In this document: in pieces, positions 4,815 to 25,211 of the stretch
Position numbering within the stretch: the first letter of the stretch is position 1
Layout: each line of letters opens with the position of its first letter
DNA from: Candidatus Nitrosotalea okcheonensis
Lineage (GTDB): Archaea; Thermoproteota; Nitrososphaeria; Nitrososphaerales; Nitrosopumilaceae
NCBI RefSeq assembly: GCF_900177045.1
Contig: NZ_LT841358.1
Location: 1,611,559-1,675,558 of the forward strand
DNA: 64,000 nt
Direction of reading: 5' to 3'
Made by a program: the position numbers and the translations under genes
The notes under the pieces: generated by a model
Told to the model about the DNA's origin: nothing
Seen by the model: the letters and a program-made list of their open reading frames with translations, nothing else
Database searches by the model: none

Positions 4815-6230
4815 TTAAACAAACTTTATTTTCGATCTCTCGGCGTGGACTGTCCTGATTGCTTTCTCTATGCTATCTCCACTATCTTCAATCACTATGA
4901 TGATTCGAGATGTTTCCTCCTGGGCATCCATGTTTAATATGTTCAAGCCTGCCTCGCCTATTCTAGAGCTTGCCTTTGATGCAACCTGTTGCACACGCCA
5001 CATCTCGTCTCCAATCAAGGTGATAACGCCCCTGTTGTAAGTTATCGATGCCAAAGAATCAAATCCCAGAATATATCTTTCGTTGCGCTTGACATAATCA
5101 CCGTCTAGAAATAATATCCTGGTAAACTCTATGTCATCTTTTGTAAATGGAGACAAGACTACAAACTCACTGTATCTCTTGTCCCTGTCAAGTGAATGGA
5201 ACAATCTTTCAGATGCATCTTTCTCAATTCTAACGATGGAACAATTTTTCTTTCCAGTGACTATCTTGAGTGGATGGCCGTTTTTTTCACTGGGTTTTCG
5301 TTCAATTGTTGTAATGTTTTCAGGCTTGCCCATATCAGTAATTATTATTGGTATCTCTACGCCATTTTCTACAATCTCCTTTATTGCAATCGGATCAAGA
5401 ATCTTCATTCCAAACATCCCTGCAATTCTTGCCTCGTTGTATGAGAGGCTGGTGATGCTTTCCAGTTCTTCCTTGACTAGTCGTGGATCTGCGGACAGTA
5501 CCGCACTATCTTTTTCAAAGTCTATTCTGGTGTTGTATTTTTTGTTAAAAAGAATTCCAAGATCAGCTGCAGTTCTATCAGAGCCTCCTCTCTCATAAGT
5601 TGTTTCTATCCCATCTACCGTCTTTCCGATAAATCCTCCTATTGACAAGACATCGTTTTTTTCCAGCAACTCTTCCACTTCTTCCATTCTTTCTGATGAC
5701 TCGGAGGCAAGAAAGTTTGCCGATTCCAAGTTATTATCTGTGATTATGGGCCATATGTCAAATGGAATGACTTCGGATTTTATGCCAGAACTTTTCAGGA
5801 CATGGTTCATTACGTGAGACATTAAAATTTCTCCAGAATATGCAAGCAACCTTGCCCTGGTTTCATTGGCAAACTCTCTTTTTTGTAGAGTTTCTGACAA
5901 AACAGTTCTAGCTTTTTCAAGAAAAAGATCGATGGTTTTGTTACAATCCTCTTGCAGTGTCCTGTCTATCGTTTGAACAATTTTTTGATATGGTTTTCTC
6001 AGAATTTCTGTATCTGGTTTTTCTCCTCTTTCTGCTCTACGCCCAATCTCAAGCGCAATATCTGTAAGAGATCTTTGTTTTTCATTGTATACTGTAAGAG
6101 GAGCAGAAAAGACCGTGATTACCTTGGAATTTTTTTTCAACTCGTTAATCCTTTTGATTATGGTGGGTATCAGTATGCCATCAACGCCCACTGCACTGCC
6201 GCCAAATTTTGAAATGACTAGATTTTCCAA
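4815..6230 (-). CDS. lysC: Aspartate kinase
   Basis: The enzyme phosphorylates L-aspartate, the first step towards Lys, Thr, Met and Ile. At 471 residues it has an N-terminal amino-acid kinase domain opening with ISKFGGSAVG and carrying ERGGSDRTAADL around residues 215-225. The C-terminal part (about 320-471) fits two ACT regulatory domains, including NRGVITLIGDEM and IGEAGLNILNMDAQE. The ACT domains imply feedback control by an end-product amino acid. No other pathway gene is adjacent. It is transcribed leftwards with a 125-bp gap upstream of the gene end at 6356. Confidence 0.93.
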   Translation of the reverse strand: MENLVISKFGGSAVGVDGILIPTIIKRINELKKNSKVITVFSAPLTVYNEKQRSLTDIALEIGRRAERGEKPDTEILRKPYQKIVQTIDRTLQEDCNKTIDLFLEKARTVLSETLQKREFANETRARLLAYSGEILMSHVMNHVLKSSGIKSEVIPFDIWPIITDNNLESANFLASESSERMEEVEELLEKNDVLSIGGFIGKTVDGIETTYERGGSDRTAADLGILFNKKYNTRIDFEKDSAVLSADPRLVKEELESITSLSYNEARIAGMFGMKILDPIAIKEIVENGVEIPIIITDMGKPENITTIERKPSEKNGHPLKIVTGKKNCSIVRIEKDASERLFHSLDRDKRYSEFVVLSPFTKDDIEFTRILFLDGDYVKRNERYILGFDSLASITYNRGVITLIGDEMWRVQQVASKASSRIGEAGLNILNMDAQEETSRIIIVIEDSGDSIEKAIRTVHAERSKIKFV

Positions 6231-7372: not shown

Positions 7373-7460
7373 ATCTTCAATTCTATCTGGATGTGATTTC
7401 TCTATTTTTTATTTTGGATGATTCTCAAAGTTTAAATCTATTTTAATTAGGAGCTTGCTT

Positions 7461-7535
7461 GGGTTCATAGTCCAGGTCGGTTATGACGTCGCCCTTACAC
7501 GGCGAAGATCCAGGGTTCAAATCCCTGTGGACCCA
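7461..7535 (+). tRNA. tRNA-Val (anticodon TAC)
   Basis: All four arms fold. The acceptor stem pairs GGGTTCA with TGGACCC (one G-T pair). The anticodon stem TCGCC/GGCGA encloses loop CTTACAC with anticodon TAC. The T arm is CAGGG-TTCAAAT-CCCTG. The discriminator is A, no CCA is encoded, and no intron is visible. Confidence 0.95.
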
Positions 7536-7748
7536 TACTTACATACGGTATGGATACCCCTCAAAAAAATGACCAAGTTTCCCATTTTTGGACAATGACA
7601 ATTTTTGAAATTTCTGCCAGAATTATTTTTTTGACAATGTGGTACTTGATACCATTTCCTGCATTTTTCCAAGATCTTCTGGTGTTGCATTCTGACGTCC
7701 TTTTTTATTATGTAAGAATTCCCTGATGATGTGAAAACTATGGATCCA

Positions 7749-9108: not shown

Positions 9109-9393
9109 ATGGAAGTCCTAATGACTGCAAGCACAATTGTCTCTGGAGCAAACATGGTAGCTCTTGGAGTACTCATCGGGGTTTTTGCCAAAATGTATTC
9201 CAAAACCAAGGCACAATTGCCCCTTGGGATGATATTTTTTGCAGGCCTATTGTTTTTGCATAATGTAATTGGGGTCTATGCATACTTTACAATGATGGAA
9301 CTTTATGGATCTGCACTGCTGCCATACCTGTTGGCAGTACATGTGGCAGAATTTGCTGGCATACTAATATTTCTGAGAATAACCCTCCAATAG
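9109..9393 (+). CDS. Small membrane protein (94 aa)
   Basis: The protein is almost wholly hydrophobic, with three predicted membrane segments (about residues 8-28, 36-58 and 66-92). A short basic loop follows the first helix. No catalytic motif or named family is recognised. It starts 25 bp after the winged-helix regulator and precedes another membrane protein, so the three likely form a transcription unit. Confidence 0.7.
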   Translation: MEVLMTASTIVSGANMVALGVLIGVFAKMYSKTKAQLPLGMIFFAGLLFLHNVIGVYAYFTMMELYGSALLPYLLAVHVAEFAGILIFLRITLQ

Positions 9394-21904: not shown

Positions 21905-22168
21905 ATGTGGATTCCAGAGCGAACCAAAAAATTTACCAGACAATACAAATCACTACATTCTGATTTGCAAAAAAAGGTGGATTTAGTGATAGCTGAACTA
22001 GTCGAGTCTGAAAATCCTACCAAATTAGGCAAATACAAACCAAGTATCAAAGCATATGCTTATGTTCTTGACAAAAGCAATAGGATTCTCTATAATGTAT
22101 CATTTAACGAAGATGCGATTGAGTTCATACGTGTAGGCAGTCATAAACAGGTGTATGGCAAGGATTAA
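21905..22168 (+). CDS. RelE/ParE-type toxin
   Basis: The 87-residue protein matches the RelE/YafQ fold by pattern: an N-terminal FTRQYKSLHSDLQKKVDLVI helix pair, a central YKPSIKAYAYVLDKSNRILYNV strand segment, and the C-terminal EFIRVGSHKQVYG strand. The late Arg and His could act in mRNA cleavage. Family members cut mRNA at the ribosome or inhibit gyrase. It pairs with the charged small gene at 21699. It starts at the ATG at 21905. It may have helped to stabilise the island. Confidence 0.8.
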   Translation: MWIPERTKKFTRQYKSLHSDLQKKVDLVIAELVESENPTKLGKYKPSIKAYAYVLDKSNRILYNVSFNEDAIEFIRVGSHKQVYGKD

Positions 22169-22857: not shown

Positions 22858-23215
22858 ATGGTGATAAAAAATGCAAAGTTTCTAGAATCTGAGATCCGAA
22901 AACTCGAGAAAAGTACGTGTAACCATAATAACAAAGAACTTGGGATAACATGGATCCCAAAACCAAACGCGAAAAAAGAAGGTGAAGTCATAGGCAATAC
23001 AATTACATCTATCCACAAGCTCTCATATGGCACTAGAAACTCTGAGACACGAATTTTTTGATCTAATTGTTAGCAATGCAATCAGACCATACATGAATCT
23101 GGTAAACGCCCTATTGTCAGTCATTGGAGAGAGCGCCTACGAAAACAAGGAGGAGACTGTCGAGTCACTGTTGTTGCTGTGTCAATCTACAGCAAATGAG
23201 CATCTTGCATCTTGA
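22858..23215 (+). pseudogene. Frameshifted conserved-looking gene
   Basis: Two overlapping frames look like one gene broken by a single-base shift. The first (22858-23061) runs through GITWIPKPNAKKEGEVIGNT. The second, entered by frame change near 23005-23010, reads SSHMALETLRHEFFDLIVS and continues to 23215. Joined, they give about 118 residues with a strand-rich first half and a helical second half. I recall similar GEV-GNTI plus LETLRHEF patterns in archaeal proteins of unknown function, but cannot confirm this. If no shift exists, they are two small genes that overlap by about 35 bp. Confidence 0.5.
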
Positions 23216-23255: not shown

Positions 23256-23290
23256 ATTACGCTAAAAGGCGTTACGCCAGATGGCGTAAT
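23256..23290. repeat. Nested palindrome at the left edge of the ATPase unit
   Basis: Outer arms ATTACGC (23256-23262) and GCGTAAT (23284-23290) enclose the near-perfect palindrome GGCGTTACGCC (23268-23278). The outer right arm overlaps the first two bases of the long inverted repeat. It could form a cruciform or bind a protein. Confidence 0.6.
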
Positions 23291-23372
23291 ATGTGACCGT
23301 TTTAGTTGCAACACAGTTATGCACTATTAATTTCCCCAAACCCTGTAAAGTTTAAATCATGTAAAGGTTACA
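23289..23372 (+). repeat. Long inverted repeat, left, flanking the ATPase gene
   Basis: Bases 23289-23354 match the reverse complement of 24572-24637 at 63 of 66 positions. Five bases further in, TGTAA-AGG-TTACA (23360-23372) mirrors TGTAA-ATG-TTACA at the right end. Confidence 0.92.
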
Positions 23373-23379
23373 GTATTGT

Positions 23380-24558
23380 GTGTCGTTTACGCTATATTCA
23401 GTAACCGGAGATGACTTCATAGGAAGAAAAGAACTAGTTGACGAATTAACAAGAGAGCTCTCCTCCAAGAATAAAATCGGTTTCTCGTTGTCAGGAATAA
23501 GGCGTATAGGAAAAACAAGTATACTAAAAGAGGTTGAAAGTAGATTGACAAAACAGCGTATACCTGTTATCTATATCTCAATATGGAGAATCTTGCCAAC
23601 TACTATTGATGAATTTACAAGAGTATTGGATAGAGTTGCATTAAGTGCATTTGAACATAAACTACCAAAGAAATTCAAATTTGAAGAGCTTCTAGTAACT
23701 GGCGCAAAAGCATTAGGCAATTTTCTCTCTGGCCTTAATTTATCTGCCAAAGTTGCAGAAGATCTCAAGCTATCCTTATCATATATCAAAAAAGAATCAG
23801 AGGATGTCGAGGAAGCTGTTACAAAATCTATCTCTTTAATAGAACATTTGGCAGAGATGACAAAAACCAAATGTGTTCTGATCATCGATGAATTTCCGTC
23901 CATAGTTGAGCTTACTTACGGAGAAAAAAACAGAAAGATGGGATTCGATATAGTAAAATTGATACGCACATTATTTGAAGACTTCAAGTATACAAAACTA
24001 GTGGTTTCCGGATCTTATCGTGATACGCTAGATAACTTGGTGACAAAAACAAGTGCGCCTTTCTACAAACAGCTACTTCTTCGAGAAGTAGAACCTTTTA
24101 CTAAGGATGAATTTGATAAGTTCATCACACATTATCTTCCAGATCTAAAGTTTATTGACAGTCAAACAAAAGAAGAATTTTACAAGATTTCTAGTGGGAT
24201 TCCATACAATCTACAGCTTTTAGGAAAAGAAATTCAGTTACATGATATGGTAAAACTTGATAGCAAAAAACTTTATGATATTGTTAAAACGATATTAAAG
24301 AAAGAAGGAGAGCAATCATTTAAAGAATTTACAGAAAACCAGACCCCGTCAGAAATTAAGGTGTTAAAGGCACTTGCAAAGTCTCCTGAAAAGAAGCCTA
24401 CAGATATTGAAAAGGATGAATTCATGAGTAATGCCACCATAAGTTCAGCATTAGTTTCACTTTGTAGCAAGGCAGTTTTGAAAAGACGGGAACGTGGAAT
24501 CTACGAATTTACTGATAATCTATTTGCCGAATGGCTCAAAGTATCAGAAATCATGTAA
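23380..24558 (+). CDS. Archaeal AAA/STAND-type ATPase inside inverted repeats
   Basis: The 392-residue protein resembles the archaeal ATPase family (PF01637 type). It opens with DDFIGRKELVDEL, has Walker A in SGIRRIGKTS (about residues 39-48), Walker B in CVLIIDEFPS (about 165-174), a sensor-like VVSGSYRDT, and a C-terminal winged-helix region (about 320-390, SEIKVLKALAKSP). Such proteins are often attached to mobile elements, but their roles are poorly known. The start is GTG at 23380, 26 bp inside the left repeat. The stop codon lies within the right end structure. No partner gene is inside the repeats. Confidence 0.85.
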   Translation: MSFTLYSVTGDDFIGRKELVDELTRELSSKNKIGFSLSGIRRIGKTSILKEVESRLTKQRIPVIYISIWRILPTTIDEFTRVLDRVALSAFEHKLPKKFKFEELLVTGAKALGNFLSGLNLSAKVAEDLKLSLSYIKKESEDVEEAVTKSISLIEHLAEMTKTKCVLIIDEFPSIVELTYGEKNRKMGFDIVKLIRTLFEDFKYTKLVVSGSYRDTLDNLVTKTSAPFYKQLLLREVEPFTKDEFDKFITHYLPDLKFIDSQTKEEFYKISSGIPYNLQLLGKEIQLHDMVKLDSKKLYDIVKTILKKEGEQSFKEFTENQTPSEIKVLKALAKSPEKKPTDIEKDEFMSNATISSALVSLCSKAVLKRRERGIYEFTDNLFAEWLKVSEIM

Positions 24559-24637
24559 ATGTTACATCCTCTAAACTTTACGCGGTTTGGGGAAATTAAT
24601 AGTGCATAACTGTGTTGCAACTAAAACAGTCACATAT
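24554..24637 (-). repeat. Long inverted repeat, right, flanking the ATPase gene
   Basis: Inverted partner of 23289-23372. The TGTAA-ATG-TTACA motif (24554-24566) contains the ATPase stop codon and is 5 bp from the 66-bp repeat, as on the left side. Confidence 0.92.
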
Positions 24638-24669
24638 CATGTATACAAAATTGCATACTTGTCATTTCG

Positions 24670-25089
24670 CTAGACGAGCTTGCAGATCAGGATCCTGCCA
24701 CTTGAAAGCTCTTTTACTATGTCCCAGCCTTTTTTGACGTACAGGACAAGATTGTCTTCATCAATCAGTAGACTATCATATCTTTCGCTCTCTTTTTCTT
24801 TCATTAATTCCTGGATTGCAATCTTGATTGCCTTTAGTATATCGTCAATATATCTTGGCGCATACTGTTTTGATTCAAGGTATGATACATGATCATGTAA
24901 CAAATCTTCAAGCTTTCTTGCATCCTCTTCTCCAATTGATACAAGCTCCTTTGGAGATATGGCATATTGGATACAGAAGAGGTTCAATCTTCGCAGTCTT
25001 ACGCTTGCAGTCAATTTGCTTCCCCTGCAAAGGTTCTCGTACTATCTCCTAACGTCTGCATCTTCAAGGAGTCTTGTGCATTTTTGCAT
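24670..25089 (-). pseudogene. N-terminal fragment of a tyrosine integrase with an amber stop
   Basis: From the ATG at 25089 the frame reads 15 codons, hits TAG (25042-25044), then continues YENLCRGSKLTASVRLRRL and ISPKELVS to a SAM-like helical domain ending near YIDDILKAIK. This is the core-binding domain pattern of archaeal tyrosine recombinases. The TAG lies where the pattern suggests a Trp (VRR-W-YENL), so it is likely a point mutation. The catalytic domain with the Arg-His-Arg-Tyr residues is missing. The last 30 residues (VKKGWDIVKELSSGR) may come from the end of the original gene. It lies 50 bp from tRNA-Ala. Confidence 0.75.
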
Positions 25090-25137
25090 ATTGACAAAAT
25101 TTCTATTGGTTTTAAGGGGTTTCGAACTGTATAGTAG

Positions 25138-25149
25138 GTGGACCGAGGG
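25138..25149 (+). repeat. Proximal att-like site in the tRNA-Ala 3' end
   Basis: GTGGACCGAGGG covers the discriminator base and the last bases of tRNA-Ala plus one base outside it. It is identical to 21598-21609. Confidence 0.6.
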
Positions 25150-25211
25150 GGATTTGAACCCCCGACTTCCGCGTTGCGAACGCGGCATCACTACCACTAG
25201 ACTACCGGCCC
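25139..25211 (-). tRNA. tRNA-Ala (anticodon CGC)
   Basis: Read on the minus strand, the acceptor stem pairs GGGCCGG with TCGGTCC (two G-T pairs). The anticodon stem CCGCG/CGCGG holds loop TTCGCAA with anticodon CGC. The T arm is GGGGG-TTCAAAT-CCCCC. The discriminator is A and CCA is not encoded. Its 3' end borders the island. Confidence 0.93.

Follow-up and report, generated by a model that had tools for sequence, protein, structure and literature searches.

An ATPase gene bracketed by iterons within an integrative element of Nitrosotalea occurs in both orientations

Background

Archaeal STAND-like ATPases of the ATPase_2 family (PF01637) are frequent in archaea; to our knowledge, no agreed function has been assigned to them. 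Few papers in the open literature name the family, and no account of iterons flanking its genes, of inverted ends or of their inversion was found there. Several better described systems offer points of comparison. The orc/cdc6 genes of archaea are sometimes flanked by origin recognition boxes both upstream and downstream (PMC3528665), and Orc1-2 of Sulfolobus is an autoregulatory AAA+/winged-helix regulator which binds its own promoter (PMC9738581). Thaumarchaeal integrative elements that target tRNA genes carry an integrase gene overlapping the tRNA gene and are associated with a direct att repeat (PMC6563490). In phase-variation inverters, a segment bounded by inverted repeats occurs in both orientations.

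The locus described here lies in a window of 64,000 nucleotides of the genome of Candidatus Nitrosotalea okcheonensis (a single contig of 1.97 Mb, referred to as G000; all coordinates of the locus are those of the window). Like Orc1/Cdc6, its ATPase is a predicted AAA+/winged-helix protein encoded beside repeated sites; however, the iterons of the cassette are palindromes of 15–16 bp placed over the start region and the stop codon, the protein does not match the Cdc6/Orc family, and the gene is mobile, with opposite orientations in different species. The surroundings resemble the tRNA-targeting elements, except that an iteron-bounded ATPase cassette sits at the tail-to-tail junction of the integrase gene and a small gene, orfB, an arrangement for which no counterpart was found in the accessible portion of that description. 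In contrast to phase-variation inverters, the unit has no recombinase, and its promoter is inside the inverted segment, so that flipping would not switch the ATPase gene on or off.

Results and discussion

The ends of the cassette

The original prediction was of an ATPase gene enclosed in long inverted repeats, and this anatomy was confirmed in detail. The two 66-bp arms (23289–23354 and 24572–24637) are identical at 63 positions, with mismatches at 10, 55 and 56; the chance expectation of so good an arm match in the window is about 5e-24. Beyond 5-bp spacers (AATCA and TCCTC), the arms continue into TGTAAAGGTTACA (23360–23372) and TGTAAATGTTACA (24554–24566), both of the form TGTAA-N3-TTACA, the right one containing the TAA stop codon (24556–24558) of the ATPase gene. 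The latter is the sole ORF of the unit, which contains no transposase, and apart from a palindromic ATAT common to both arm ends, no target duplication is visible at the unit ends.

Each 66-bp arm terminates on its inner side in TGTAAAGTTTA, a second copy of TGTAA-N3-TTACA in 16-bp phase (repeat family D1), and the ends of the unit thus each comprise two tandem sites in addition to an outer arm. The bracket is two-layered, with inner pairs of near-palindromic iterons of 15–16 bp and an outer arm of about 50 bp which is specific to Nitrosotalea and was not found around homologous ATPases of other genera. The left outer arm (TGTGAC...TTCCCC) occupies 23289–23338 on the plus strand, and its inverted copy, the right outer arm, 24588–24637 on the minus strand. 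The left iteron pair, TGTAAAGTTTA-5-TGTAAAGGTTACA, spans 23344–23372 (plus strand) and is supported by the D1 spacing of 16, by the alignment of arms and by the tandem test described below; the right pair (24554–24582, minus strand), made up of the stop-codon motif and then TAAACTTTACG, faces inward. Short palindromes occur just outside the unit, namely TTACGCCAGATGGCGTAA on the left (23272–23289) and TGCATAC repeats on the right (24638–24660), the latter being expanded in the related genome G132.

On the 5' side, the alignment of arms places TTTAAA or TTTATA about 27–33 bp ahead of the ATPase start codon. Judged from this spacing, the second dyad would lie near the expected transcription start, and the left iterons probably overlap both the TATA box (TTTAAA) and the start; binding to them would consequently repress or tune the ATPase's own promoter.

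The ATPase protein

The gene (23380–24558, plus strand, GTG start) encodes 392 amino acids with the P-loop GIRRIGKTS. The protein matches ATPase_2 with 38.6 bits, above the curated Pfam cut-off of 33.2, and no Cdc6/Orc family appeared among the Pfam or NCBIfam results. An AlphaFold model of moderate confidence (pLDDT 78, pTM 0.54) predicts an ATPase domain followed by a C-terminal winged helix. The best match among PDB structures is ORC2 of Aeropyrum (probability 1.0, although with a TM-score of at most 0.33), and a sequence search of solved structures returned a weak match to a winged-helix protein, 6jbx (E = 0.0075), as its sole result. PADLOC reported a weak match to the candidate system PDC-S27. 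The most likely reading of the model is an AAA+/STAND-type ATPase with a C-terminal winged helix, an architecture as in Orc1/Cdc6. That such a protein may act on its own ends, as had been proposed among other possibilities, receives only indirect support, from the predicted winged helix and from the conservation of iterons around the family.

Iterons across the family

Relatives with 60–64% identity are represented by three records outside Nitrosotalea, and those with 31–35% identity by Methanosarcina, Methanomicrobia, ANME and two bacterial records. The members have an MxF[TS]L N-terminus in common and mostly occur as a single copy per genome. Their distribution is scattered; in the class of one Methanosarcina (G405), for example, 9 of 238 genomes contain a member. 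No relatives were found in viral contigs, and phages and plasmids yielded distant matches only (about 24% identity for the plasmid matches).

Tandem repeats of 15 or 16 bp precede the ATPase gene in each of the 17 archaeal members of a small survey (19 members in total, the methanogens among them being partly close relatives and hence not independent), with no more than 4.1% of the locus-control draws attaining the score. Neither of the two bacterial members has upstream repeats; both instead have an array overlapping the stop codon. Downstream arrays are also present in Nitrosotalea, in G216 and in three Methanosarcina, and weakly in Nitrosopumilus (G162) and a Bathyarchaeota record. They differ in sequence, keep the same period, and in several cases overlap the stop codon. 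Ten methanogen and ANME members have no downstream array, which indicates that bracketing on both sides is not required family-wide. Alignment of eleven arms from Nitrosotalea, Nitrosopumilus, G216, G358 and the Bathyarchaeota record showed that TGTAAAGTTTA-N5-TGTAA-N3-TTACA is kept almost throughout. Across the family, the repeat sequence varies by lineage at constant period and position, as would be expected if protein and sites co-evolve. Homologues of other genera thus differ from the original description in one respect and agree with it in another: only Nitrosotalea has the long outer arms, whereas the inner repeats recur in the relatives.

The iteron pair is restricted to this ATPase family in G000, where it occurs in both arms and in one decayed copy, and in G324; the genome of G132 contains two weaker matches elsewhere.

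The near-universal occurrence of upstream iterons in archaeal members, the absence of downstream arrays from many of them, and the scattered, usually single-copy distribution would also suit an ordinary autoregulated gene with a functional upstream operator, the downstream copies and long arms being by-products of local inverted duplication and recombination. We regard this as unlikely, because by-products are not predicted to recur with the same period and different sequences in Nitrosotalea, G216, Methanosarcina and the two bacteria, several times over the stop codon.

Among the Methanosarcina loci, the ATPase copies of L072 and L111 are flanked by direct repeats of about 140 bp, and that of L068 is located beside a truncated duplicate gene; L121 is a corresponding locus without the ATPase. 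The occupied/unoccupied pair L072 and L121 documents presence and absence only, as its breakpoints fall within repeats rather than marking out the iterons.

The carrier element

The unit is located between the remnants of an integrase gene and of the small convergent gene orfB of a tRNA-targeting element. The orfB remnant (22858–23215, plus strand; last 62 amino acids, 23027–23215) is frameshifted and homologous to a gene that, in related elements, overlaps the 3' end of the integrase gene. The integrase remnant (24670–25014, minus strand) matches residues 67–130 and 421–483 of the 483-residue integrase of G324, its catalytic part being deleted. The G324 integrase found no match among solved structures, and there was no Pfam match; the protein is called an integrase from its position, the att repeat and residues read by eye. 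In G000, tRNA-Ala(CGC) (25137–25211, minus strand) is the putative integration target of the carrier, and the window contains no att repeat of at least 14 bp for it. The tRNA-Val(TAC) gene (7460–7536, plus strand), unoccupied in G000, is the site of the same carrier element in G324 and is occupied in G132 as well, by a degenerate att copy. An ORF for a ParE-like toxin (21905–22168; PF15781, below the curated cut-off) is located upstream of the carrier remnant.

The G324 element comprises about 3.1 kb, essentially the ATPase and the integrase only, and is bounded by a 17-bp direct repeat of the 3' end of tRNA-Val (at 6152 and 9257 of its locus; tRNA-Val at 9260–9336). Such a minimal element, with tandem iterons adjoining an initiator-like gene, calls to mind the core of a small integrative plasmid composed of ATPase and integrase, in which the ATPase would be an iteron-binding initiator and the cassette its origin; the Orc1/Cdc6-like top fold match (ORC2, with the low TM-score given above) and the origin recognition boxes on both sides of some orc/cdc6 genes (PMC3528665) would fit. 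However, relatives of the same integrase occur without the ATPase, which is therefore not needed to maintain such elements, the methanogen and bacterial members lie among chromosomal genes, and plasmid matches are as distant as stated above, making an origin function of the cassette rather improbable.

Seven integrase relatives (approximately 55–78% identity) have no ATPase gene in the DNA read, and orfB accompanies six of them. In five of these six (L129 and L131–L134), none with an ATPase nearby, the 3' ends of the integrase gene and of orfB, which has an RHEFxDYL motif, share exactly 42 bp in a tail-to-tail overlap. In G000, the frameshifted orfB ends at 23215 and the integrase gene at 24670, with the unit in between and both genes keeping their own 3' ends. 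Compared with unit-free junctions, there is an extra difference of 73 bp to the left and 32 bp to the right of the unit, and the ends of the insertion are accordingly not exact; as the copies of the former 42-bp overlap are no longer alike, a long target duplication is not demonstrable. A unit-free version of the joined G000 flanks was not found in 37 Nitrosotalea genomes, in which these flanks occur only with the unit.

Orientation and exchange

An invertible cassette had been one of the original proposals, and the comparison with the metagenome assemblies G132 and G324 supports it. Relative to G000, the unit of G132 (L023) aligns in minus orientation with both flanks in plus, and that of G324 (L024) is inverted relative to the integrase gene, the ATPase gene running with the integrase as in G132. 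Both orientations are hence seen at one locus, as a difference between sister species. G324 is without one outer arm, lost right at the iteron, and retains the ATPase gene; this loss makes an assembly artefact due to inverted repeats an unlikely cause of its orientation. In-place inversion and replacement of the cassette in the other orientation could each have produced the arrangement, and the two are indistinguishable here.

Between G000 and G132, the segment from iteron through gene to iteron differs at 15 of 1250 positions (1.2%), as opposed to 49 of 586 (8.4%) in outer arms and flanks (Fisher p = 1e-13), and fourfold-site divergence of the ATPase gene is 0.034–0.060 versus 0.14–0.39 in adjacent core genes. 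The low divergence indicates that the core was exchanged recently. The sharp drop in divergence falls between the outer arm and the iterons and not at the outer end. Moreover, two changes (GTTTTCG and GCATTATT) set the G132 arms, left and right alike, apart from both arms of G000, and the arms within each genome are more alike than either is to its counterpart in the other genome. All of these data on orientation, divergence and arm likeness are accounted for by arm-to-arm recombination that flips the unit, converts sequence and replaces the core. The unit itself has no dedicated recombinase, and the integrase lies outside it and is a remnant in G000. It appears improbable that the unit is a mobile single gene whose ATPase recognizes the iterons at start and stop and directs exchange between integrative elements without a transposase of its own.

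Copies and iteron sites elsewhere

The G000 genome contains neither another intact unit nor another copy of the outer arm. Matching ends at other loci, for which a search had been suggested, were confined to G132 and G324 among 400 genomes of the order, and the tip of the outer arm had no matches in viral contigs. The idea of a non-autonomous transposon, put forward originally, draws on the long and nearly perfect inverted arms, which might serve an unseen insertion sequence as terminal inverted repeats, the unit being its MITE-like passenger mobilized in trans, on the existence of related elements without the unit, and on the recent horizontal movement of the core. It is nevertheless improbable: there is one intact copy, the outer ends are limited to three Nitrosotalea genomes among the 400 of the order, no target duplication is visible, no viral contig matches the arm tip, divergence drops inward of the outer arm rather than at its outer end, and G324 keeps the gene despite the missing arm. 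Neither a cognate insertion sequence nor a transposase with TGTGACYGTTTTMGTTGCAA ends was found.

The decayed second 3' end in G000 (G000:C1:1758464–1758523; L005:2465–2524) consists of an iteron pair and the last codons of a related ATPase (..FAECAQISETL*). It has no outer arm, and about 100 bp away there is a palindrome rich in TGCAT that resembles the one next to the unit. In G260, a three-iteron palindrome, TGTAAAGTTTAAAGGGTGTAATATTTACAGGGTTTAAACTTTACA (G260:C43:30616–30672; L028:4617–4673), has no ATPase gene within the 9 kb read and follows a tyrosine integrase gene at a distance of about 300 bp, near a gene for a conjugation-type coupling ATPase; a perfect 40-bp palindrome, TTACATGTACGAAGAAAAAATTTTTTCTTCGTACATGTAA (L028:4513–4552), lies between the integrase gene and the iteron palindrome. 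The three-iteron palindrome was considered as an excision scar and set aside: it fits the predicted product of inner-iteron recombination, but a homologous flank without the palindrome was not found.

Proposed mechanism

The predicted AAA+/winged-helix model, together with the parallels to orc/cdc6 genes and Orc1-2, favors an iteron-binding, self-regulated cassette. We propose that the ATPase binds the iterons flanking its gene on both sides and regulates its own expression, and that the cassette travels in an integrative element, flipping and homogenizing by recombination of its arms; we assign this reading a probability of roughly 0.55. Points that weigh against it are the moderate model with its low TM-scores, the ten members lacking a downstream array, the ATPase-free iteron palindrome of G260 and the inexact insertion ends. 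The ATPase most likely binds the palindromic iterons of 15–16 bp, the 5' sites serving to control its own promoter. The iterons at the stop codon would constitute a second nucleation site, allowing ATP-dependent oligomers to link the two ends of the gene. The cassette, presumably inserted between the convergent integrase and orfB genes, would travel along with the tRNA-targeting element. Its outer arms of approximately 50–66 bp would recombine with each other, probably via homologous recombination of the host, which would flip the cassette, homogenize the arms and enable incoming copies to take the place of the core whichever way they are oriented.

Conclusions

The cassette represents an archaeal gene that occurs in both orientations and, carrying no recombinase itself, is exchanged within an integrative element. 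For the PF01637 family, the phased palindromic sites at the start of the gene family-wide, and at its stop in several lineages, suggest a concrete DNA target for the protein.
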